A stretch of 54,380 nt of DNA from an uncultured Erysipelotrichaceae bacterium. Lineage in GTDB: Bacteria > Bacillota_I > Bacilli_A > RF39 > UBA660. The stretch is taken from positions 1-54,380 of the forward strand of contig CADCJQ010000012.1 of assembly GCA_902801795.1 (NCBI GenBank), in the 5' to 3' direction. The position numbers were made by a program, and so were the translations under genes. The notes under the pieces are model-generated. The model saw only the letters and a list, made by a program, of their open reading frames with translations. It ran no database searches and had not been told where the DNA came from. Below, in pieces: positions 3,955 to 54,380 of the stretch; the first letter of the stretch is position 1; each line of letters opens with the position of its first letter.

Positions 3955-6195
3955 TTAAGTTTTTCTTATAGATACTTCCCCACTAAATCCAAATAATTGT
4001 TTAAGTTTATTTTCGATTTCTTTCTTATTATCACTTTCTACAATCATCGTTCTTGTGTACATTTTATTATTATCTTTATAGAAATTACAAATGGCTGTAT
4101 ATCCACTTATTTTACCAGTACTGATATTGTGTAATATAACTTCTACTCTATTAGCTTGAGTAACATTATTAACTGTATTATTTTTTTTCACACATCTTTC
4201 TTCTGTAACAACTTGATCAAAACATTTTTTATTTATATGTGATGTAACCGTATTAGCCTCTTCTACACAATTTTCTTCGCCACTTGGAATCTGAGTATCA
4301 TTACCATTTATTGTTATTAAATTACGTTCTAAATCTGGTCCTATTGACCCATTTAATGTTGCTTTATCCCATCCAACTATTTGATCTCCTAAGTGATTAT
4401 TTATTATTTTCATATATCCTTTTATACCTGCCCAAAGTTGAATTGATCTTTTACCAGTATTTCCATATATAGTATTGCCTTCAATCAAAATATTTTCATA
4501 AAACATCGATGTATTATTTCTTTCAATATCAATTCCTACTTGTGGCCAAGTTCCATGAGTATAACGAATAATATTAGATTTAATATTTATATTTTTTCCT
4601 TGTATAATACTAATTCCATTACGTCGTACACTATCAATAAGATTATTTTGAATATTAACAGAACCTTCTTTGGCTAAATTATATGGAAAATTTATATAAA
4701 TACCATCTCCCATCATATTTTTAATTGTTAAATTTTCAATATTAACACCAACTGAATAAATAGCAACTCCATGACCTGATTCATGAGTTCCTCCATCACA
4801 TTTTAAAGCGCCATATTTATCACATTCCATCTCTTTATCAAGACACATATGTACTGTTCTATCACCTAATAATGTTCCATTTTTTAAAGTTACAATTCCC
4901 GCATCTTGATTATTTATTTTAAATAATTGATATGAACCTACTCCATTTTTATAAACATTAAAAGTCGAACCATTCAAATCTAACGTTATATTAGAAAAAT
5001 TAATTAATATTGGCGTTGACTTTACTTCAAAGAAATAATTTCCTTTAGGTATTTGAATAGATGTAATTTCATTTCGATGCACACATTGTAAATAATTATT
5101 CATATTTTCTACATTGCTTGCTGCAATGCTTTGATTTTCTCCTTCTTTAAGATTTAATGAACAATTTTCTTTTATCTTTACTGTACATGTTGCTGTTTTT
5201 CCATTATTTGTTTTAGCAGTTATCACTGCAGTCCCACCAAGTTTTCCTGTTATTTTTCCATTTGCATCTATTGTTGCAACAGTAGAATTACTACTTGACC
5301 AAGTAACAGTTTTATTAGTTGCATTACTTGGACTTATTGTTGCAGATAATGTTTCAGTTGAACCCATATCTATACTTGTTGTTGTCTTATTTAGTGTTAC
5401 TCCTGTCACTGCTATTTCCTGTGGTGCCAGTGGTATAACATTAACGACACATGTTGCTGTTTTTCCATTAGCTGTTGTTGCTGTTATTGTTGCTGTTCCT
5501 GCTGCTTTTCCCGTAACTATTCCATTAGCATCTATTGTTGCAACTCCAATATTACTACTAGACCACGTAATAGCCTTGTTAGTAGCATCAGCTGGAGTTA
5601 TTGCTACAACTAATGTATCTGTTTTTCCTATTTCAATACTTGTTGTCGTCTTATTTAGTGTTACTCCAGTCACTACTATTTCTTGTGGTGCTGGTGGTAT
5701 AACATTAACGACACATGTTGCTGTTTTTCCATTAGCTGTTGTTGCTGTTATTGTTGCTGTTCCTGCTGCTTTCGCCGTAACTAAGCCATCCTTTATGGTT
5801 GTGATACTTGTATCACTACTTGTCCATGTTAATGTTTTATTTGTTGCATTAGATGGTTCTATTGTTGCAACTATAGTTTCGGTTTTATCTACTTCCATGC
5901 TTATAGTTGTTTTGTCCAATGTTACTCCAGTTATGGTAATCTCCTGTAATTTAAAACGATACAAAAGATAAATAATTATAAAAATAACAACTATTATTAT
6001 ACAAAAAAATATTAAAAACTTTTTACTCTTTTTTGGTGGATTATTTCCATCATAATATAATTGATTATTACCATCTTTTAGATTTTTTTCAAATTCATTA
6101 TATGAATTATAATAATCATTTTTATACCCTATATCAATATTTTGGTCATAATTATTATTAAATAATTCACTTTGATTTTGTTCATTGTTATTCAT
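3955..6195 (-). CDS. membrane-anchored surface protein with three Big_2 Ig domains and a beta-helix domain
   Basis: The 746-residue protein has an Asn/Tyr-rich cytoplasmic N-terminus (1-57) and one membrane helix (about 59-79). Three bacterial Ig-like (Big_2) repeats follow, from about residue 87 to 345, each beginning with a variant of (I/V)TGVTLxKT and ending in TATCxVxV/I. A right-handed beta-helix region at about 360-620 is rich in N-I-x-I/V ladders such as VNIENLTIKN and SNIIRYTHGTW, like PbH1/pectate-lyase-fold proteins. The last about 110 residues contain six cysteines and look like a separate cap. The fold suggests binding to or cleavage of polysaccharide; no catalytic set is recognised. 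It is anchored by the N-terminal helix, since no LPXTG motif is present. AGGGTGATGTT precedes the start. Confidence 0.72.
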   Translation of the reverse strand: MNNNEQNQSELFNNNYDQNIDIGYKNDYYNSYNEFEKNLKDGNNQLYYDGNNPPKKSKKFLIFFCIIIVVIFIIIYLLYRFKLQEITITGVTLDKTTISMEVDKTETIVATIEPSNATNKTLTWTSSDTSITTIKDGLVTAKAAGTATITATTANGKTATCVVNVIPPAPQEIVVTGVTLNKTTTSIEIGKTDTLVVAITPADATNKAITWSSSNIGVATIDANGIVTGKAAGTATITATTANGKTATCVVNVIPLAPQEIAVTGVTLNKTTTSIDMGSTETLSATISPSNATNKTVTWSSSNSTVATIDANGKITGKLGGTAVITAKTNNGKTATCTVKIKENCSLNLKEGENQSIAASNVENMNNYLQCVHRNEITSIQIPKGNYFFEVKSTPILINFSNITLDLNGSTFNVYKNGVGSYQLFKINNQDAGIVTLKNGTLLGDRTVHMCLDKEMECDKYGALKCDGGTHESGHGVAIYSVGVNIENLTIKNMMGDGIYINFPYNLAKEGSVNIQNNLIDSVRRNGISIIQGKNINIKSNIIRYTHGTWPQVGIDIERNNTSMFYENILIEGNTIYGNTGKRSIQLWAGIKGYMKIINNHLGDQIVGWDKATLNGSIGPDLERNLITINGNDTQIPSGEENCVEEANTVTSHINKKCFDQVVTEERCVKKNNTVNNVTQANRVEVILHNISTGKISGYTAICNFYKDNNKMYTRTMIVESDNKKEIENKLKQLFGFSGEVSIRKT
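5160..5945 (-). repeat. three tandem Big_2-coding repeats, partly identical at the DNA level
   Basis: Three units of about 260 bp encode the Ig-like domains. About 80 bases at 5431-5510 and at 5691-5770 are almost identical, 260 bases apart, including silent positions. This points to recent duplication or conversion, so repeat number may vary between strains. Confidence 0.75.
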
Positions 6196-6360: not shown

Positions 6361-7118
6361 TTATACACAAGTATAGCCACCATCAACGGTAAGAATAGTA
6401 CCTGTTACATAACTTGCTTCATCACTTTCTAAAAAGATAGCAGCTGCATTAAGTTCGCCTTCTTTACCATATCGTCCCATAGGAACCGTTTGTTTCATAT
6501 AATTTTTAAAGTCTTCTGTATCAAGAACCGCTTTTGTTAATTCCGTTTCAAAATAACCTTGACATATACAATTACAAGTAATATTATATTTAGCAAGTTC
6601 TGCAGCAACTGCTCTTGTGAAGTTAACAACACCACCTTTACTTGCATGATAAGCTACTGTTCCCATTGCGGTATTTCCAACAAGACCATACATTGAAGCA
6701 ATATTAATTATTCTTCCATAATTATTTTTTTTCATAATATTACCAAAAGCTCTTGTAACTTTAAATACCGAAGTAAGATCAGTTGCTATTGTAAAATCCC
6801 ATTCTTCATCCGTCATTTCAAGAACTCCTTTATCACGACTTGCCCCTGCACAATTAACTAAAATATCAACTTTGCCAAAACTTGTTCAGTTATTTCCGCT
6901 GCTTTATTAATTTTATTAGTATTTGTAACATCACATTCTATCGCCAAAACTTTTGTTCCTTTACTTTCTAACTCATTTTTTAATTCTTTAAGTCTATCAA
7001 ATCTTCTTGCTAGTATAACTAGACTTGCTCCACATTCAGCAAAAGCATAACACATTTGTCTACCAAGACCGGATGGCGCTCCTGTAACTACTGCCACTCT
7101 TCCCTTTAGATTAAACAT
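6361..7118 (-). pseudogene. frameshifted duplicate of the short-chain dehydrogenase at 8149-8907
   Basis: The sequence is almost the same as the intact gene 1.8 kb away, but the A run at 6877-6880 has four A where the intact copy has five (8665-8669). The frame breaks after residue 81, just before the NCAG motif, and the rest continues in another frame. There are also changes at conserved places: Q for P in the CPGYFETEL loop, E for G in FLGSDEAS, and a changed C-terminus. The added missense changes argue for decay after duplication; a sequencing error in the A run remains possible. Confidence 0.8.
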
Positions 7119-7145
7119 ATTCTTTTTTCTTTCTTATCATATATA

Positions 7146-8060
7146 TCATTTCTTATTACTTCGATATATATCATAACATAAATATAAAAATATTATTAAA
7201 ATACTTATTATTATCATAATTAATAATGGCTCGTTCTTCATCTTTGAAAACGAAGATATTTGTGTTTCATTCATTTCATTTTTTTTATTACAATTATTAA
7301 CATCAATGATTTCATTTATAAAAGTATAATCACCTCTATCACTATACTTTCCCCAAACATACCTATTATTATTCAAATAGCATCTATCTTCTTCATAACA
7401 TCTAACGTTATCGTCTTTTCCTAAAATAAACCAATCATTTCCCGGAGACATATTAGATATTTGATATTTATTACCATCAGTGTCAAAACGACGCCAACAA
7501 TACTTTTCTGGTTCTTTACAATCATTTTTATTTCCAACGCCAGAAATTTTTTCATAACCGGCTATTTCTCTATACTTTCCCCAAATGTAATTATTGCCAT
7601 TTTTATAGCAAAAAGATTCCTCATCACATTTTAGGTCTTTAGCTTTTCCCACTTTTATCCAACCAGTTCCCGGTGATATATTGGTTATGGCATATTTATT
7701 TCCGTCTGCACTAGGATAGCGCCAACAATAATCTACTTTTTGACACGTTCCGCATCCAGCCTTACCATAACCATAAACTGTTTCATATCCGTCAGAACAT
7801 GGTACACAATCATCTTTCGTTTTAGCATGACTTGACTTTGGTTCTGTGCCATAAGGACAGCAAAAATAAGTCTTACCATCTGGACAATAATTGCCATCTT
7901 TTTTCAAACATGAATCACAACTATACTGAGTAGGATATGAACCAGGTTCACATAAAACATCACCTACATATTTAAATCCAATGTCATTTAGTAATAGTTT
8001 TTCAATTAAAAAAACTGATATCATAGTTATCGCAATAAAAAATCTCTTTTTTAAATTCAT
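7146..8060 (-). CDS. cysteine-rich single-pass surface protein with two internal repeats
   Basis: The 304-residue product has a signal peptide (about 1-24), then a Cys-rich EGF/GCC2-like part at about 36-110. Two copies of a repeat of about 72 residues follow (about 111-182 and 187-258), each with YCWR, DGNKY, SPG, a WxxxGK-like loop, CYxNNxxxxWGKY and a closing Cys. A C-terminal helix (about 277-295) precedes RSNKK, so it is a type I membrane protein facing outwards. I do not know the family. It lies exactly between two copies of an SDR gene, which suggests it was brought in or trapped by that duplication. GAGGT precedes the start. Confidence 0.65.
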   Translation of the reverse strand: MNLKKRFFIAITMISVFLIEKLLLNDIGFKYVGDVLCEPGSYPTQYSCDSCLKKDGNYCPDGKTYFCCPYGTEPKSSHAKTKDDCVPCSDGYETVYGYGKAGCGTCQKVDYCWRYPSADGNKYAITNISPGTGWIKVGKAKDLKCDEESFCYKNGNNYIWGKYREIAGYEKISGVGNKNDCKEPEKYCWRRFDTDGNKYQISNMSPGNDWFILGKDDNVRCYEEDRCYLNNNRYVWGKYSDRGDYTFINEIIDVNNCNKKNEMNETQISSFSKMKNEPLLIMIIISILIIFLYLCYDIYRSNKK

Positions 8061-8148
8061 ATTATTAGTACCTCAAATGATCAAAAAAACGTTCAAGCAA
8101 TAATAATCAACTTAAACAATTTTTTAAGAAAGCGTCAAAATAAAAATT

Positions 8149-8907
8149 TTAAATAGCAGTATACCCACCATCAACGGTAAGAATAGTACCTGTTACATAA
8201 CTTGCTTCATCACTTCCTAAAAAGATAGCAGCTGCATTAAGTTCACCTTCTTTACCATATCGTCCCATAGGAACCGTTTGTTTCATATAATTTTTAAAGT
8301 CTTCCGTATCAAGAACCGCTTTTGTTAATTCTGTTTCAAAATAACCTGGACATATACAGTTACAAGTAATATTATATTTAGCAAGTTCTGCAGCAACTGC
8401 TCTTGTGAAGTTAACAACACCACCTTTACTTGCATGATAAGCGACTGTTCCCATTGCGGTATTTCCAACAAGTCCATACATTGAAGCAATATTAATTATT
8501 CTTCCATAATTATTTTTTTTCATAATATTACCAAAAGCTCTTGTAACTTTAAATACCGAAGTAAGATCCGTTGCTATTGTAAAATCCCATTCTTCATCTG
8601 TCATTTCAAGAACTCCTTTATCACGACTTGCTCCTGCACAATTAACTAAAATATCAACTTTACCAAAAACTTGTTCAGTTATTTCCGCTGCTTTATTAAT
8701 TTTATTAGTATTTGTAACATCACATTCTATCGCCAAAACTTTTGTTCCATGACTTTCTAACTCATTTTTTAGTTCTTTAAGTCTATCAAATCTTCTTGCT
8801 AGTATAACTAGACTTGCACCGCATTCTGCAAAAGCATGACACATCTGTCTTCCAAGACCTGATGACGCTCCTGTAACTACTGCCACTCTTCCCTTTAGAT
8901 TAAACAT
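8149..8907 (-). CDS. short-chain dehydrogenase/reductase (SDR), intact copy
   Basis: This is a 252-residue classical SDR, NAD(P)-dependent. It has the cofactor loop TGASSGLG at 12-19, NCAG at 89-92, catalytic Ser142 and YHASK (Tyr157, Lys161), and a C-terminal TGxxLTVDGG motif near 240. The closest subfamilies by eye are FabG-like and gluconate 5-dehydrogenase-like; the substrate cannot be told from sequence. It follows the flavin reductase gene by 17 bases and probably belongs to the same operon. It is the parent of the frameshifted copy at 6361-7118. Confidence 0.85.
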   Translation of the reverse strand: MFNLKGRVAVVTGASSGLGRQMCHAFAECGASLVILARRFDRLKELKNELESHGTKVLAIECDVTNTNKINKAAEITEQVFGKVDILVNCAGASRDKGVLEMTDEEWDFTIATDLTSVFKVTRAFGNIMKKNNYGRIINIASMYGLVGNTAMGTVAYHASKGGVVNFTRAVAAELAKYNITCNCICPGYFETELTKAVLDTEDFKNYMKQTVPMGRYGKEGELNAAAIFLGSDEASYVTGTILTVDGGYTAI

Positions 8908-8924
8908 ATTCTTTTCTCTCCCTT

Positions 8925-9479
8925 TTATTTTAATTCTTGACCATCATGAAAAGCCTGACCAACTTTGTTCCCTACCTCATAATATCCATGATTAAAAGTA
9001 TCATAAATTAAAGCATGAATTTTACTTGGAACAATCTTTTCATCATTATCTAATATTTTTTCATCAACAGAAACATTAATTATTTCACCAACGACTCCAT
9101 AATCCGTAAATTCCACAAGTTTACATTCCATAACAATTGGAAATTCATCAATAATTGGAGCATTTACAAATTCAGATTTTATAGCCGTTAAACCACTTTT
9201 TTGAAACTTATCTGGTGTATTATTTCCAGATACTATTCCACAATAATCGGCTTCTTTAATATGCTGTGAATCGGCTATAGAAACTGTAAAACATCCTGTT
9301 TCTTTAATATTTTTTACTGTTTTATGAGTTTCTGTTAAATTTAAAATAACCATATTCATATCAGCCATCATTCCCCAAGCTGCATTCATCACATCAATAT
9401 TTTCTTCCTTATCATATGTTCCTACCATTAATACCGGCATTGGAAATATCGCTGCCTTACTTCCTAAATTCTTTCTCAT
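8925..9479 (-). CDS. flavin reductase family protein (FMN-binding split barrel)
   Basis: The 184-residue protein starts MRKNLGSKAAIFPMPVLMVGTYD, typical of the flavin reductase-like domain in anaerobes. These bind FMN and pass electrons from NAD(P)H to flavin or a partner; the physiological partner is usually unknown. Supporting segments are NVMNAAW-like VMNAAWGMM near 30-38, TxKNIKETGCFTVSIAD in the middle, and a C-terminal region ending HDGQELK. It is followed by the SDR, so the pair may act together in a redox pathway (inference). Confidence 0.82.
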   Translation of the reverse strand: MRKNLGSKAAIFPMPVLMVGTYDKEENIDVMNAAWGMMADMNMVILNLTETHKTVKNIKETGCFTVSIADSQHIKEADYCGIVSGNNTPDKFQKSGLTAIKSEFVNAPIIDEFPIVMECKLVEFTDYGVVGEIINVSVDEKILDNDEKIVPSKIHALIYDTFNHGYYEVGNKVGQAFHDGQELK

Positions 9480-9498
9480 ATTTATCCTTTCTTTTTTA

Positions 9499-9930
9499 TT
9501 AATTAATATTTTTCTCTTTTTTTAATTTTTCTTTAGTATCTATTGTTCCTTTAAACACATAATATTCATCATATAAATACTCTAAAACAAAATTTAAAAG
9601 CATATTTATTCCCGTAACTAAAAATTCATTCCAATGAAGATTCTCTGCAAGGTAATTTCCTAAAAGCGTTGAAAGCGGTGTAAAAATTAAATAAAAGACC
9701 GCAACCTTTACCATTGCAATAGGAATATTATTCGTTGATTTAAAAGTATACTCTCTATTTAAGGTAAAATTCCAAATAACAGAAGCAACTAAAGCTGGTA
9801 AATAACATAACCAATAATCCCAATTTGTAATACTATCCAATAGAGTAAATAACCCAATTTCAATTACACCAGCAGATATTGAAAATAAAGTAAATTTAAT
9901 TTTTCTTATTAATTCTTTCTTATTCCTCAT
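9499..9930 (-). CDS. GtrA-family membrane protein
   Basis: The 143 residues form four membrane helices, with the family signature WNFTLNREYTFKS in the middle. GtrA-like proteins are thought to flip undecaprenyl-linked sugars for surface polysaccharide or teichoic-acid glycosylation. The start overlaps the stop of the MFS gene by four bases (ATGA), so the two are translationally coupled. No glycosyltransferase is adjacent, so the sugar is unknown. Confidence 0.82.
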   Translation of the reverse strand: MRNKKELIRKIKFTLFSISAGVIEIGLFTLLDSITNWDYWLCYLPALVASVIWNFTLNREYTFKSTNNIPIAMVKVAVFYLIFTPLSTLLGNYLAENLHWNEFLVTGINMLLNFVLEYLYDEYYVFKGTIDTKEKLKKEKNIN

Positions 9931-11105
9931 TTATCCTTTACCTCTTTTTCTTTAGCATTAATAACATAAATAACTAAAATAGTTAAAGGTACAATACTAT
10001 AAAACAAAATAAACTTCATTAATTCAATTCTTCCAGTAATACCAACACATAATAAAACACCATAGCCAATTATTCTGGCAATCTCTAAAAGTGTTTCTAA
10101 TAATAAATGATATTCTGCACGATGAAATCTAACGTATATATGATTACTAGCATTAACAATGATATTATCAGCAGTTAAACTAATAAGAGTAATTCCAATA
10201 GCATATATTATTAAATAAAGAATAAAGACAACATTATTAGCACTTATTCCCAATAAAACTAAACTTATTGACATTAAAACTAATGTTATGACACTAATAG
10301 CTTTAAAATACTTTTCTTTCTTACTGTGTGCATAAATAATCGATGTTAAAATAGTAAGTATTCCCAGTAAACTATTTAAAATACCAATATATAAATTACT
10401 TTCAAAATATAATACTTTATAAATAGTCATTACTCCTACTAAAACACCACTACCTATGGTAAAGCCTTGCAAAAATTGCATAATTAACGCACTTTGAACT
10501 AATGAATCCTTTTTTATATGTTTGTAAAACTTTATTAAACTTATACGACCATCACTTTCATCATTATCTTTAACATAAAAAGATAAAACAAACATTACTA
10601 TCATTAATATAAAGACTATTTTTCCAACATCAACATAAGAATAATAATTTAATACGACACCTAATAATAAAGGTACTAATACAGTACTTGCACCATTAAT
10701 TGCACTCATTAAGCCATTATATTCTTTTCTTTCTTTATTAGATATTTTAGTACTATTTAAGATGTTTCTTGGATAAAAATAAAATCCATCACCCAAGCCT
10801 TTAACAATTGCTACTAAATATAAGTAATTAACAATATCTTCTCTAAATAACATCACAAGCGCTAAATAAAGAGCCGTTATCGATATCCCTATTCGATAAT
10901 AATATATTTTATATTTAAGTCTTGAAGAGGTACTTAAAAACCAAAAAGACAAAAGAATTGTTATAAAAACAATTAAATAAAACATTGCAAAATGAAAAAT
11001 ATTATAATTTACTATATTTAAAAAATAAATTACAAAAAATATATCAAAATAAATTGTTACAATATTTCTTAAAACATTAATTAATGAAAACGCTTTTCTA
11101 TCCAT
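9927..11105 (-). CDS. major facilitator superfamily transporter
   Basis: The 392-residue product has about 11-12 hydrophobic helices and charged loops typical of MFS permeases. The short GLGDGFYFYPRN segment (about 103-114) sits where the A-like motif of the first half would end. Topology and length fit MFS; the substrate is not indicated. It lies eight bases after the DUF523 gene and overlaps the GtrA gene. Confidence 0.75.
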   Translation of the reverse strand: MDRKAFSLINVLRNIVTIYFDIFFVIYFLNIVNYNIFHFAMFYLIVFITILLSFWFLSTSSRLKYKIYYYRIGISITALYLALVMLFREDIVNYLYLVAIVKGLGDGFYFYPRNILNSTKISNKERKEYNGLMSAINGASTVLVPLLLGVVLNYYSYVDVGKIVFILMIVMFVLSFYVKDNDESDGRISLIKFYKHIKKDSLVQSALIMQFLQGFTIGSGVLVGVMTIYKVLYFESNLYIGILNSLLGILTILTSIIYAHSKKEKYFKAISVITLVLMSISLVLLGISANNVVFILYLIIYAIGITLISLTADNIIVNASNHIYVRFHRAEYHLLLETLLEIARIIGYGVLLCVGITGRIELMKFILFYSIVPLTILVIYVINAKEKEVKDK

Positions 11106-11112
11106 ACTACAC

Positions 11113-11544
11113 CTACCACTTATATTCTAAATAGTTATCTTCATCTAAAACAACTATTCCATTCTTTTTTAATAACTTTGCAGTTATTCCTTCACCTTCA
11201 ATTAGATTATTACTAAATGTTCCATCATATATTTTTTGACTTCCACATGATGGACTATTCTTTTTTAATATTGCTACCTTAATATTTTCATTTTGGGCTA
11301 TTTTTAAAGTTTTTTCTGCCCCTTTTAAATAATTACTAGTAACATCTCTTCCTTCTTTATTAATTACTCTATTACCTTGTATTTCTGAAGGTGATCTTGG
11401 AACTTTTAAATCACCTAAACACTCCGGACACACTTTAATTACATCTTTATCTTTTAAAAAAGCAAGTAAAGCATCATTTTTATTATTTTTCCCATTATAT
11501 TTTACATTATCTCCTAGTAAACATGCACTAACCATTACCTTCAT
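11113..11544 (-). CDS. DUF523 domain-containing protein
   Basis: The 143-residue protein matches DUF523: the start MVSACLLGxxxxYNG, the CPE motif CPECLGDLKVPRSPSEIQ near 39-56, and LKKNSPSCGSQKIYDGTF near 93-110. The conserved cysteines suggest metal or Fe-S binding, but the role is unknown. Its start lies inside the end of the LD-carboxypeptidase gene (17 bases overlap). Confidence 0.88.
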   Translation of the reverse strand: MKVMVSACLLGDNVKYNGKNNKNDALLAFLKDKDVIKVCPECLGDLKVPRSPSEIQGNRVINKEGRDVTSNYLKGAEKTLKIAQNENIKVAILKKNSPSCGSQKIYDGTFSNNLIEGEGITAKLLKKNGIVVLDEDNYLEYKW

Positions 11545-12482: not shown

Positions 12483-13718
12483 TCATTTCCCAAAATTCAT
12501 TGGATATTTAATATCTAATTCATATGGGCTAGCCTGTGTTCCAGTACCACTAATAATTGAAACATCGGGTCTTAAATAAATAACTGGCATAAACCCGGCT
12601 TCTTTCTTGCTATCCAAAGAAACTATACCATCCTTACTTAATAAATTAACATTATCGCCATTTTTGTTTAAAGTAAACAATTGATTATCCGTTTTTATCC
12701 AATTATTTTCTTTTAAATATAAATAATCCGTTATATTTAATAAACCAACATAGGCAAAAGTAGTTTCTAATATTTCATCTTTATAAGCATTATTAAAGTC
12801 TTTTTTATTAGTACTTCCAATATTCCATTTAGCATTTACCATCATATTTTTCTCTTTATCATTTAATTTATCATAAAAAATTCCATTAGCAAAAGTATTG
12901 ATGTAAGAATTTTCATAGTTACCATCTAAATCTTTATTGTTAAAAGTAATATCTTCAATCACTTTATTATTAGTTAATTTAATCATTTGATACTGGGAAG
13001 AAGAATCTTTAAAACTATTTTTAAAACTTCCAATTATTTGCCACTTCTCACAATAATCTTCTCCTTTAGTATAATTATCTACACAATTAAACCATACGTA
13101 ATTTTTTTGATTATTTGTATAGCGATAATTATCATTTTCACTCTGAACACCATCTAAATTATTTGTTCCTAAATATTCAATAACATTAGTAGCATATTTA
13201 TTTTCATTATGAGTTGCTAAAAGCGATATTGATGCTTGAAATTTTTTATTCATATAAGTTTCATCAGCCTCTAATGATAACCATAATTTAATTTTATAAA
13301 CATCTTTGGCTTTTTTCTTTAAAACTTTATTTTGATTAATTGTATAGTTATCACTTAATAAATTAATTTTTTCATATTCACCATTATTTAAACTATAAGC
13401 ATATTTTATAACATCTTTCATTGGAAAAATACTATTTTCAATAATATCAAGTCGATAATTTACATCAAAATCACTATTATTTAAAACTGTAAATGTAAAT
13501 TCTTTACTCTTTTTTAAGCCATCTTCATCACTTGTAGGAATACCACCTAAAGATATTTGTGTATTATCTTGAAATTCAACATCAAAGTTAGCCACATTAA
13601 AGCCATAGCTTTCTTCACTAACTATTGTATTGGAAATCATTGAATAACTTGTACCTAAAAGCATTATTACTCCTAATGACATAATAATTGTAGCAATAAC
13701 AAAAGTTTTATTTTTCAT
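12483..13718 (-). CDS. exported TasA-like protein with a C-terminal DUF6273-like domain
   Basis: The N-terminus (MKNKTFVIATIIMSLGVIMLLGTSYSMIS) resembles a SipW-type signal peptide. A beta domain at about 35-165 contains the motif IKLWLSLEAD shared with other TasA/camelysin-like proteins in this window. The rest, about 185-411, has YVWFNCVDNYTKGEDYCEKW, FAYVGLLNITDYLYL and the closing GFMPVIYLRPDVSIISGTG, which matches the domain doubled in the protein at 52541-54380. Here that domain is AT-rich throughout, so it is a useful non-variable comparison. It probably sits on the cell surface or in a matrix fibre. Confidence 0.65.
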   Translation of the reverse strand: MKNKTFVIATIIMSLGVIMLLGTSYSMISNTIVSEESYGFNVANFDVEFQDNTQISLGGIPTSDEDGLKKSKEFTFTVLNNSDFDVNYRLDIIENSIFPMKDVIKYAYSLNNGEYEKINLLSDNYTINQNKVLKKKAKDVYKIKLWLSLEADETYMNKKFQASISLLATHNENKYATNVIEYLGTNNLDGVQSENDNYRYTNNQKNYVWFNCVDNYTKGEDYCEKWQIIGSFKNSFKDSSSQYQMIKLTNNKVIEDITFNNKDLDGNYENSYINTFANGIFYDKLNDKEKNMMVNAKWNIGSTNKKDFNNAYKDEILETTFAYVGLLNITDYLYLKENNWIKTDNQLFTLNKNGDNVNLLSKDGIVSLDSKKEAGFMPVIYLRPDVSIISGTGTQASPYELDIKYPMNFGK

Positions 13719-18274: not shown

Positions 18275-18351
18275 GCGCTCGTAGCTCAATTGGATAGAGC
18301 GTTTGGCTACGGACCAGAAGGTTGCGGGTTCAATTCCTACCGGGCGCACCA
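18275..18351 (+). tRNA. tRNA-Arg (anticodon ACG)
   Basis: The 77-nt cloverleaf has acceptor arms GCGCTCG/CGGGCGC, D arm TAGCTCAATTGGATAGAGC, an anticodon stem around loop CTACGGA with anticodon ACG at 18309-18311, T arm GCGGGTTCAATTCCTAC, and encoded ACCA. The A34 would be edited to inosine to read CGU/CGC/CGA. Confidence 0.97.
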
Positions 18352-18356
18352 TATTT

Positions 18357-18433
18357 CGGGATGTGGCTCAATTTGGTAGAGCATTAGGTTTGGGACCTAG
18401 TGGTTGCAGGTTCAAATCCTGTCATCCCGACCA
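18357..18433 (+). tRNA. tRNA-Pro (anticodon TGG)
   Basis: The 77-nt cloverleaf has acceptor arms CGGGATG/CATCCCG, loop TTTGGGA with anticodon TGG at 18391-18393, T arm CAGGTTCAAATCCTG, and encoded ACCA. It lies five bases after tRNA-Arg, so both come from one precursor. Confidence 0.97.
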
Positions 18434-52540: not shown

Positions 52541-54380
52541 TTATCCAATTTCATATGGATCATTAATAAATCCACTACCCTTGATAATTTTTGTCTCAGA
52601 TTTAATGACGATAGATGGTCGGGCACCGCGCGCGCTGGAGCCGGGCGAGTCGCTGCCAAAGGCACCGCCATTGCCCACAAAACGCACATAGGAGGAACTA
52701 GATGGTGTTATTAACCACATACTCTTATAGGTGGTTGAGCTGCTGACGTGTGTTAATGTTGATTGCTGTGCTGACATCATTTCTCCTGCACGTAATAGTC
52801 CAACAAGTCCGGTATACGTTTTATTAGTATCACTACTTTCATATTTCGTACAATTACTAATGGTTGTTGTCTCAAGTTCACTTGCTGTATTTTTACATAT
52901 CGTTGCTTTATAGTTCGTACTATTTGAATGCAATCCTAAATAGTACGTTCCATTTACTAGCAGGTTCTTATCACCTGAAGAAATAGTACTTAACCATCCA
53001 TTTTCATCAGTCAAATATTTATCCCAGTATTTCATATCTGTAGACTGCGTATTAAAATAGACATCACTTCCAAAATTACCTTTTGTTGTATCAGAAGTGT
53101 TGGAACTATTTGGGTTATTTATATAACTTGTATTTACTATTTTAGTTGTATTATTTTCTATTCCCACAATTCTGTATAATTCATTATTAAATTTAACATA
53201 TTCACCACTTATTCTAGTATTTAGAAGTTCATTAGTCTTGCCTTCTTCTACGTCACCTATAATATGGAATGGTAATAATCTTGTTCCATCATAATTTTCG
53301 GTATCAAATATGGCGTTAGATTTAATGACGATAGATGGTCGGGCGCCACCCGCGCTGGATGGAGAGTTGTTGGTCAAGGCACCGTAGTTGCTCACGATAC
53401 GCACATTGGAGGAACTATATGGTGTCATTAACCACCAATATTGGCCAATATGTAAATATCCTGAACTTGTTCCACTTTTAGTGTATTCAAAGGCATTTAA
53501 TAATCCTACTGTTCTAGTTATCGTGTCATTTGCTACTCTTTCTAAATATGGGTCTGTATCTGCCGTAGTCTCTTTAACATTCCATTCACTATTTTGAACA
53601 ACGATATTGGTATTATTATATAGTGTTGGTACCATCCATGAGTCAGCAAAGGTTACTGTGCTACCAAAATATATTGATGTCATAGGATTTTCGGTTACTA
53701 ATTTTATCATACCATTTGGGTAAATCGCTACTATTCTCCATAGTTTTCCAGAGTACCAAACATAATTCTTTAAACAATCTTCATCATTACCGGTATAATA
53801 GATGACGTCCGCATCAATTTCTCCATAAAATGATGATTTATTTGGTTCTGTCGAAATACATGATGCTTGAGTAGTTTTTCTTTCTTGTAAAAATTCACTA
53901 GCTGTTTCTTTAATTACAGCATACAAAGTTGTATCACTATTAAAGTTAATGGTGTCTCCTACTTTATATTCAACTTCCCCATCTGGTGTTGTACTCCATC
54001 CTTTAAAGTTTGGTACATCAAGAGATACTGTTATGGTATCGGTTCCATCTCCTTTAAGAGGTTGTCGTGATGGTGTACTTCCTAACAGCCCATTTTTATT
54101 ATAAGTTAAATATCCGACAGCAGATGAGTCATATACTCCTTCATCAGCAGATACTTTAACACTAAAACCAATTCCAGATGTTTGTAAAGCATTCCATTCA
54201 GTAGTTGTTAACACGGTTCTTCCATCAACCCAATCACTTGTTGTACCCATATTATCTGATTCGGTTCCATCATAGGTATCACTTATAGCTACTCTATCAC
54301 CATCAATATAAACTCTTAAAGTAATTGTTCCATTAACATTCGTATTTGGTGGAATATGACCTACAGCAAATTCTGAGTCA
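52541..54380 (-). CDS. large surface protein with two DUF6273-like domains and two variable cassettes (5' end outside the window)
   Basis: The frame is open to the window edge, so the N-terminus is missing. From there the order is a beta segment (VNGTITLRVYIDG, GRTVLTTTEWNALQ) shared with the DUF285 proteins, then an InlB-like repeat (FKGWSTTPDG...TLYAVI). Two copies of a domain follow that recalls DUF6273: domain A with YVWYSGKLWRIVAI...YWWLMTPYSSSNVRIV...GARPSIVIKS, and domain B with LYRIVGIENN...MWLITPSSSSYVRFV...GARPSIVIKS, ending GSGFINDPYEIG. The SSSxVR to GARPS part of each domain is GC-rich and nearly shared, while the rest has diverged. It is probably exported by a SipW-type signal encoded beyond the edge. 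Confidence 0.7.
   Translation of the reverse strand, partial: DSEFAVGHIPPNTNVNGTITLRVYIDGDRVAISDTYDGTESDNMGTTSDWVDGRTVLTTTEWNALQTSGIGFSVKVSADEGVYDSSAVGYLTYNKNGLLGSTPSRQPLKGDGTDTITVSLDVPNFKGWSTTPDGEVEYKVGDTINFNSDTTLYAVIKETASEFLQERKTTQASCISTEPNKSSFYGEIDADVIYYTGNDEDCLKNYVWYSGKLWRIVAIYPNGMIKLVTENPMTSIYFGSTVTFADSWMVPTLYNNTNIVVQNSEWNVKETTADTDPYLERVANDTITRTVGLLNAFEYTKSGTSSGYLHIGQYWWLMTPYSSSNVRIVSNYGALTNNSPSSAGGARPSIVIKSNAIFDTENYDGTRLLPFHIIGDVEEGKTNELLNTRISGEYVKFNNELYRIVGIENNTTKIVNTSYINNPNSSNTSDTTKGNFGSDVYFNTQSTDMKYWDKYLTDENGWLSTISSGDKNLLVNGTYYLGLHSNSTNYKATICKNTASELETTTISNCTKYESSDTNKTYTGLVGLLRAGEMMSAQQSTLTHVSSSTTYKSMWLITPSSSSYVRFVGNGGAFGSDSPGSSARGARPSIVIKSETKIIKGSGFINDPYEIG
52598..52718 (-). repeat. 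GC-rich variable cassette, copy 1 (VR-like)
   Basis: The core 52621-52690 is 48/70 G+C by hand count in an AT-rich gene. The 3' flank in coding sense (52598-52624) is identical over 27 bases to 53318-53344, and the 5' flank (52691-52718) is nearly identical to 53408-53435. Between them, codons differ at many first and second positions and by one codon in length. It encodes SSSSYVRFVGNGGAFGSDS and PGSSARGARPS. Confidence 0.7.
53318..53435 (-). repeat. GC-rich variable cassette, copy 2 (VR-like)
   Basis: Partner of the cassette at 52598-52718, three bases shorter. The core 53341-53400 is 37/60 G+C. It encodes YSSSNVRIVSNYGALTNNS and PSSAGGARPS. Many differences from copy 1 have an A in one of the two copies (for example TAT/TCT, AAT/TAT, AGC/GGC, AAC/AGC, AAC/GAC, CCA/CCC), which fits adenine-directed mutagenesis, though some do not. 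Confidence 0.7.

Follow-up and report, generated by a model that had tools for sequence, protein, structure and literature searches.

GC-rich cassettes in a surface-protein gene of an uncultured Erysipelotrichaceae bacterium: probable variable regions of a diversity-generating retroelement, lying apart from its reverse transcriptase

Results

A surface-type gene with two GC-rich cassettes

The window, that is, the whole 54,380-nt stretch of DNA analysed here, is the complete contig C12 of a MAG from an uncultured Erysipelotrichaceae bacterium, which totals 1.51 Mb over 81 contigs at a completeness of 71%. The gene of interest, at the right end of the window, lacks its 5′ part, cut off by the contig end, and encodes a surface-type protein with two repeated, DUF6273-like domains, A and B. 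The features considered are the following:

52541–54379, minus strand: candidate target gene, a single ORF of 612 aa at the right end of contig C12, open at the contig end
53318–53902, minus strand: domain A, 40% identity to domain B
52544–53317, minus strand: domain B, compared with domain A
53318–53440, minus strand: cassette A, mid-gene
53342–53416, minus strand: core of candidate variable region A, SSSNVRIVSNYGALTNNSPSSAGGA, G+C 59%
53318–53344, minus strand: 27-nt 3′ border of cassette A, GCCCGACCATCTATCGTCATTAAATCT, identical to the B border
52598–52718, minus strand: cassette B, near the 3′ end of the gene
52622–52699, minus strand: core of candidate variable region B, SSSYVRFVGNGGAFGSDSPGSSARGA, G+C 67%, near the 3′ end of the gene
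52598–52624, minus strand: 27-nt 3′ border of cassette B, GCCCGACCATCTATCGTCATTAAATCT, identical to the A border
12483–13718, minus strand: distant homologue without a variable cassette (E = 2e-4), used as control

The initial annotation had singled out two cassettes 720 bp apart with an identical 27-nt 3′ border, and this description stands: both lie in the same ORF and are 82% identical. It had also put the G+C of their cores at 62–69%, which fits core B (67%) but slightly overstates core A (59%). Both the window and the MAG have a G+C of 27%, and 78-bp windows as GC-rich as the cores make up 0.03% (B) and 0.11% (A). The protein encoded at 12483–13718, said to have no GC-rich stretch at the same place, is indeed absent from the list of GC-rich stretches in the window. 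The other clearly GC-rich stretch, at 18275–18433, consists of tRNA-Arg and tRNA-Pro genes. Elsewhere in the window, at 5430–5720, exact direct repeats lie 264 bp apart within a 746-aa ORF (3955–6195).

The domains around the cassettes have diverged, as had been proposed: the A and B flanks differ at 59, 45 and 60% of codon positions 1, 2 and 3, compared with 28, 12 and 28% in the cores, and the window gene's A–B pair, at 77% similarity, is the most alike among all pairs. Two finer claims about the A/B differences fared less well. Between the extended copies, which span 43 codons, 25 sites differ: 10 at codon position 1, 6 at position 2 and 9 at position 3. Positions 1 and 2 thus hold 64% against 67% expected by count, which is no excess; and although an A is present in one copy at 14 of the 25, this does not in itself rise above chance. 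The B border of the sister genes described below, ATCAATCTAAAATCTGAG, differs from that of the window gene, and an A-type end therefore seems to have been copied into window cassette B. Domain A gives a weak DUF6273 match just under the Pfam cut-off, which is passed by homologues on contig C4 and in two other genomes (G350 and G183); the structure of domain B, predicted without an alignment, had a pLDDT of 35, too low for a comparison with the C-type-lectin fold expected of DGR ligand-binding domains.

A family of genes with hypervariable cores

With cassette A as query, the genome yielded 13 matches on seven contigs and, later finds included, nine cassette-bearing genes, usually with two cassettes each. 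The complete paralogues have a hydrophobic N-terminal anchor, a middle domain A with the motif WWLMTPYSSS..VR.V...G.....SP.S.A.G.RPSIVIKS and a C-terminal domain B with the motif MWLITP...RPSINLKSETK...DPYEIG.

When sister genes are compared within one domain type, their upstream flanks differ at about 6, 7–10 and 15–22% of codon positions 1, 2 and 3, and the cores at about 41, 38–42 and 38–46%; the informative contrast with the cores is that position 3 dominates the flank differences. The GC3 of the cores is 0.48–0.78 versus 0.12–0.32 in the 60 codons upstream, with the exception of two genes on contig C30. Copying from a shared template combined with local hypermutation would account for both this core/flank crossover and the core GC3, for which ordinary divergence fails. 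Within a group of eight variable regions (VRs), the mean pairwise difference was 0.65 at template-A columns and 0.28 elsewhere (permutation p = 5e-5). The two C30 genes are tandem paralogues (6619–11163) with the same domains, and their low-GC cores resemble the rest of the genome and lack the high GC3; they can be read either as a natural control or as old fossils.

A complete DGR on contig C3

The initial annotation had placed the reverse transcriptase (RT) and template of a diversity-generating retroelement (DGR) outside the window. Consistently, neither an RT nor a template repeat (TR) was found within the window or 3′ of the gene, the 5′ side being cut by the contig end. A search of the genome recovered one RT, at C3:80023, beside an Avd-like ORF, a TR and a VR. 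Together these form a complete DGR (C3:78523–82179: target VR, TR, Avd-like ORF, RT), in which 24 of 40 adenines but 1 of 80 other bases of the 120-nt TR are changed in the VR. The RT carries the motifs GLSIGAMTSQ and YMDD as well as a C-terminal MutS_I-like domain; other genomes of the family encode this MutS-like part, fused to the RT at C3, as an ORF of its own that precedes Avd and RT. The Avd-like matches at C3 lay under the curated cut-offs.

The C3 template encodes a similar motif (NVRNVNTTG...). It was rejected as a direct source of the window cassettes: the alignments were no more than short and partial, with non-A mismatches of 5/23 and 6/30, and the silent sites differ. Since the C3 DGR has both a different template and a downstream RNA of a different type from that at C4 and C9 (see below), it is uncertain whether its RT serves the window family.

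Template repeats without an adjoining RT

An A-rich consensus query led to a non-coding copy at C9:30380–30452, directly 3′ of a two-VR target; next to this unit come a trpS-like gene and one for a transporter, and no RT is present. A second non-coding TR, at C4:890–965, lies 3′ of another two-VR target and precedes one more target gene, which is cut by the contig end. No RT was found adjoining either TR, and the number of promoter-like sites around the two was not above chance. The C4 TR had been missed by an ungapped TR scan of the genome's contigs because of a 6-nt contraction in this template, VR_A and VR_B both being 6 nt longer. Gapped alignment showed changes at 11/24 adenines and 1/49 other bases in VR_A and at 11/25 adenines and 1/49 other bases in VR_B. 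Mismatches in the C4 target thus fall at template A in 22 of 24 cases, an A-only-type pattern with a structured RNA 3′ of it. Such changes, almost purely at adenines, indicate recent activity of the system. The C9 TR fits its neighbouring VRs more poorly than the C4 TR does and seems damaged at the 3′ edge.

The C9 TR is the nearest to the window cassettes in the assembly. Compared with window VR_B, it shows changes at 15/21 A versus 9/57 non-A positions (Fisher p = 7e-6), and compared with VR_A at 10/20 versus 16/55 (p = 0.08), a poor fit. Window mismatches lie at C9 template A in 62% (B) and 38% (A) of cases, while the DGR criterion is at least about 75–80%, and the window VRs carry non-A changes, including third-position C/T. 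The initial annotation had suggested searching for an AAC-rich non-coding copy of the cassette; A-rich non-coding copies were found for sister genes, at C4 and C9, but neither fits the window cassettes as a direct template, and the 71%-complete assembly holds no exact one. The idea that one template serves both cassettes is likewise borne out in part: it agrees with the 77% similarity within the gene and is directly shown for the C4 sister, but lacks an exact window template in the assembly.

A conserved structured RNA behind the template repeats

The ~160 nt behind the C4 and C9 TRs are 92% identical. Their 147-nt structured RNA, hereafter the scaffold, differs at 9/147 sites, four of the nine lying in two compensated pairs, whereas silent third positions of neighbouring genes are 22% different. 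The scaffold recurs at 76% identity in another genus, in an uncultured Bacilli bacterium (G306, CALVOW010000019.1), where the order is TR, scaffold RNA, MutS-like ORF, Avd-like ORF and broken RT, and where TR and VR differ at 8/24 A and 0/53 non-A positions. These three sequences contain nine compensated pairs, and a covariance model built from them picked up additional members in other genomes, next to DGR RTs or to TR-like matches; in related genera the scaffold stands between the TR and the MutS-like/Avd/RT genes. In an alignment of 17 members, pairing holds in 95% of cells (slid controls: near 40%) and two-sided changes occur in 35 of 36 pairs, the pairing figure being an upper bound because the alignment was fitted to the structure. 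The RNA has no Rfam family matches.

The model's hits in the MAG itself were C9 and C4 only, a weak match at C3:4440 having been dropped as it lies inside a coding gene. On contig C13 (280–400), a scaffold remnant lies 3′ of a target; the TR and much of the RNA are deleted and the terminator-like end is kept.

Related units and DGRs in other genomes

Bona fide DGRs diversify the same kind of domain in related genera, and one related genome has a DGR with a TR/VR pair of the same motif. Units without an RT recur as well: at G350:C8 and G183:C10, a target, TR and scaffold are followed by housekeeping-type genes (DedA-like, ParB-like) with no RT nearby, the RTs of both genomes being on other contigs. 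These orphan TRs show 7/57 (G350) and 7/57–58 (G183) non-A mismatches to their VRs versus 0/53 and 1/80 for RT-linked TRs, an excess that favours partial decay. We found no description of such RT-less TR and scaffold units in the openly accessible papers searched. Among viral contigs, pattern scans for the cassette gave chance matches only, and RT and domain searches gave no relatives.

Two further targets deserve mention in their own right. The homologous two-VR target at G183:C10 (8143–9858) starts with a type IV pilin N-methylation motif (N_methyl), which places hypervariable patches on a pilin-like protein. In G086, a 1201-aa surface protein (C18, 250–3855) is the target of a complete DGR whose TR (4132–4191) shows 15 A and 0 non-A changes across 60 nt.

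Discussion

Origin of the window cassettes and of the RT-less units

The window cassettes are very probably VRs of a DGR target gene that lies apart from its RT. Their identification as DGR variable regions, as first proposed, is well supported, since the genome holds a complete DGR and sister TRs, the variation is A-biased and the same domain type is diversified by DGRs in related genera. Homing would then occur in trans from an unseen template, and the third-position C/T changes point either to drift after the most recent homing event or to that unseen template.

As for the units at C4, C9, G350:C8 and G183:C10, we tentatively propose, at somewhat less than an even chance, that they are non-autonomous DGR modules, in which a two-VR target with its own TR and scaffold is dispersed without RT or accessory genes and is served in trans by one RT, each target having a private template; on this view the window gene would count among them, with its template absent. 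The same units could instead be relics of complete DGRs that lost the MutS-like/Avd/RT operon by deletion and do not act in trans, an account with very nearly an even chance. It draws on G306, where the same order runs on into MutS-like, Avd and broken RT genes, and on the non-A mismatches of the G350 and G183 orphan TRs. It sits less easily with the C4 VRs, each with a single non-A change, and with scaffolds at C4 and C9 that are far more alike than the silent sites of their neighbours, a likeness that gene conversion between copies could also explain.

The VRs of the window gene may also be fossils, written by a DGR in the past and drifting since the template or RT was lost. This is a sub-case of the DGR reading that differs in present activity, and we consider it a serious possibility, although short of probable. 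The non-A and third-position changes in the window VRs, the lack of a TR 3′ of the gene, the bare scaffold remnant at C13 and the loss of the GC-rich core in the C30 paralogues all agree with it, as do the leftover DGR targets described for Treponema denticola (PMC4891356). Against it stand the almost purely adenine changes at C4, with the recent activity that they imply, and the about 29% of the genome that is missing. Ordinary diversifying selection with gene conversion between domains A and B, without reverse transcription, would explain the identical 27-nt border and the apparent within-gene exchange, but is very improbable given the A-rich non-coding copies with a conserved structured RNA, the concentration of changes on template adenines, the restriction of high GC3 to the core and the bona fide DGRs acting on the same motif in relatives.

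Possible mechanism and implications

If the window gene is indeed a DGR target served from afar, the TR RNA would fold through its 3′ scaffold and be bound by an RT–Avd complex encoded elsewhere, which would copy it with errors at adenines; the resulting cDNA would overwrite both VRs of the homologous gene, and the two would thus remain alike within a gene and unlike those of sister genes. The window gene's own TR would lie in genomic sequence missing from the assembly, or would have been lost, as at C13.

A small uncultured bacterium has an entire family of surface proteins with paired hypervariable patches, and TRs separated from the RT. The TRs of the sister genes, parted from the RT, may be templates able to act at a distance. 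If they act in trans, RT-based DGR surveys overlook many of the targets and templates, and a single enzyme could drive several independently evolving repertoires. The covariance model of the conserved 3′ RNA offers a handle for finding templates directly.

Comparison with known DGRs

In Bordetella phage BPP-1, the sequence 3′ of the TR folds, recruits bRT–Avd and primes cDNA synthesis (PMC12875486). The conserved RNA described here occupies the same place, and by position alone would be the counterpart of that spacer, with a putative role in RT–Avd binding and cDNA priming. Unlike in BPP-1, Avd is separated from the RNA by a MutS-like ORF, and the RNA is also found in places that have no RT.

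DGRs that act on more than one target in a genome, on targets distant from the RT and on several VRs per ORF are known (Schillinger 2012, PMC3521204; PMC6642488; cyanobacterial remote variable proteins, PMC7517822); a Marichromatium protein has three tandem FGE-type domains, and 31 DGRs have several VRs per ORF (PMC3521204, PMC6642488, PMC7517822). The window gene resembles the known remote targets, in which RT and TR do not adjoin the VR. In those systems the template is with or near the RT, whereas the sister targets here have their own TR and scaffold and no RT. The Treponema denticola TvpA-type DGR (PMC4891356) offers a further parallel, with seven surface-protein targets at scattered sites, targets left behind where the DGR was lost, and variants of the TR, but the accessible parts of that report describe one TR per genome, beside the RT, and no RT-less TR units. 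Multi-VR, remote-target and leftover-target DGRs are thus already known, and the RT-less units of template and scaffold are the more novel part of the present system.
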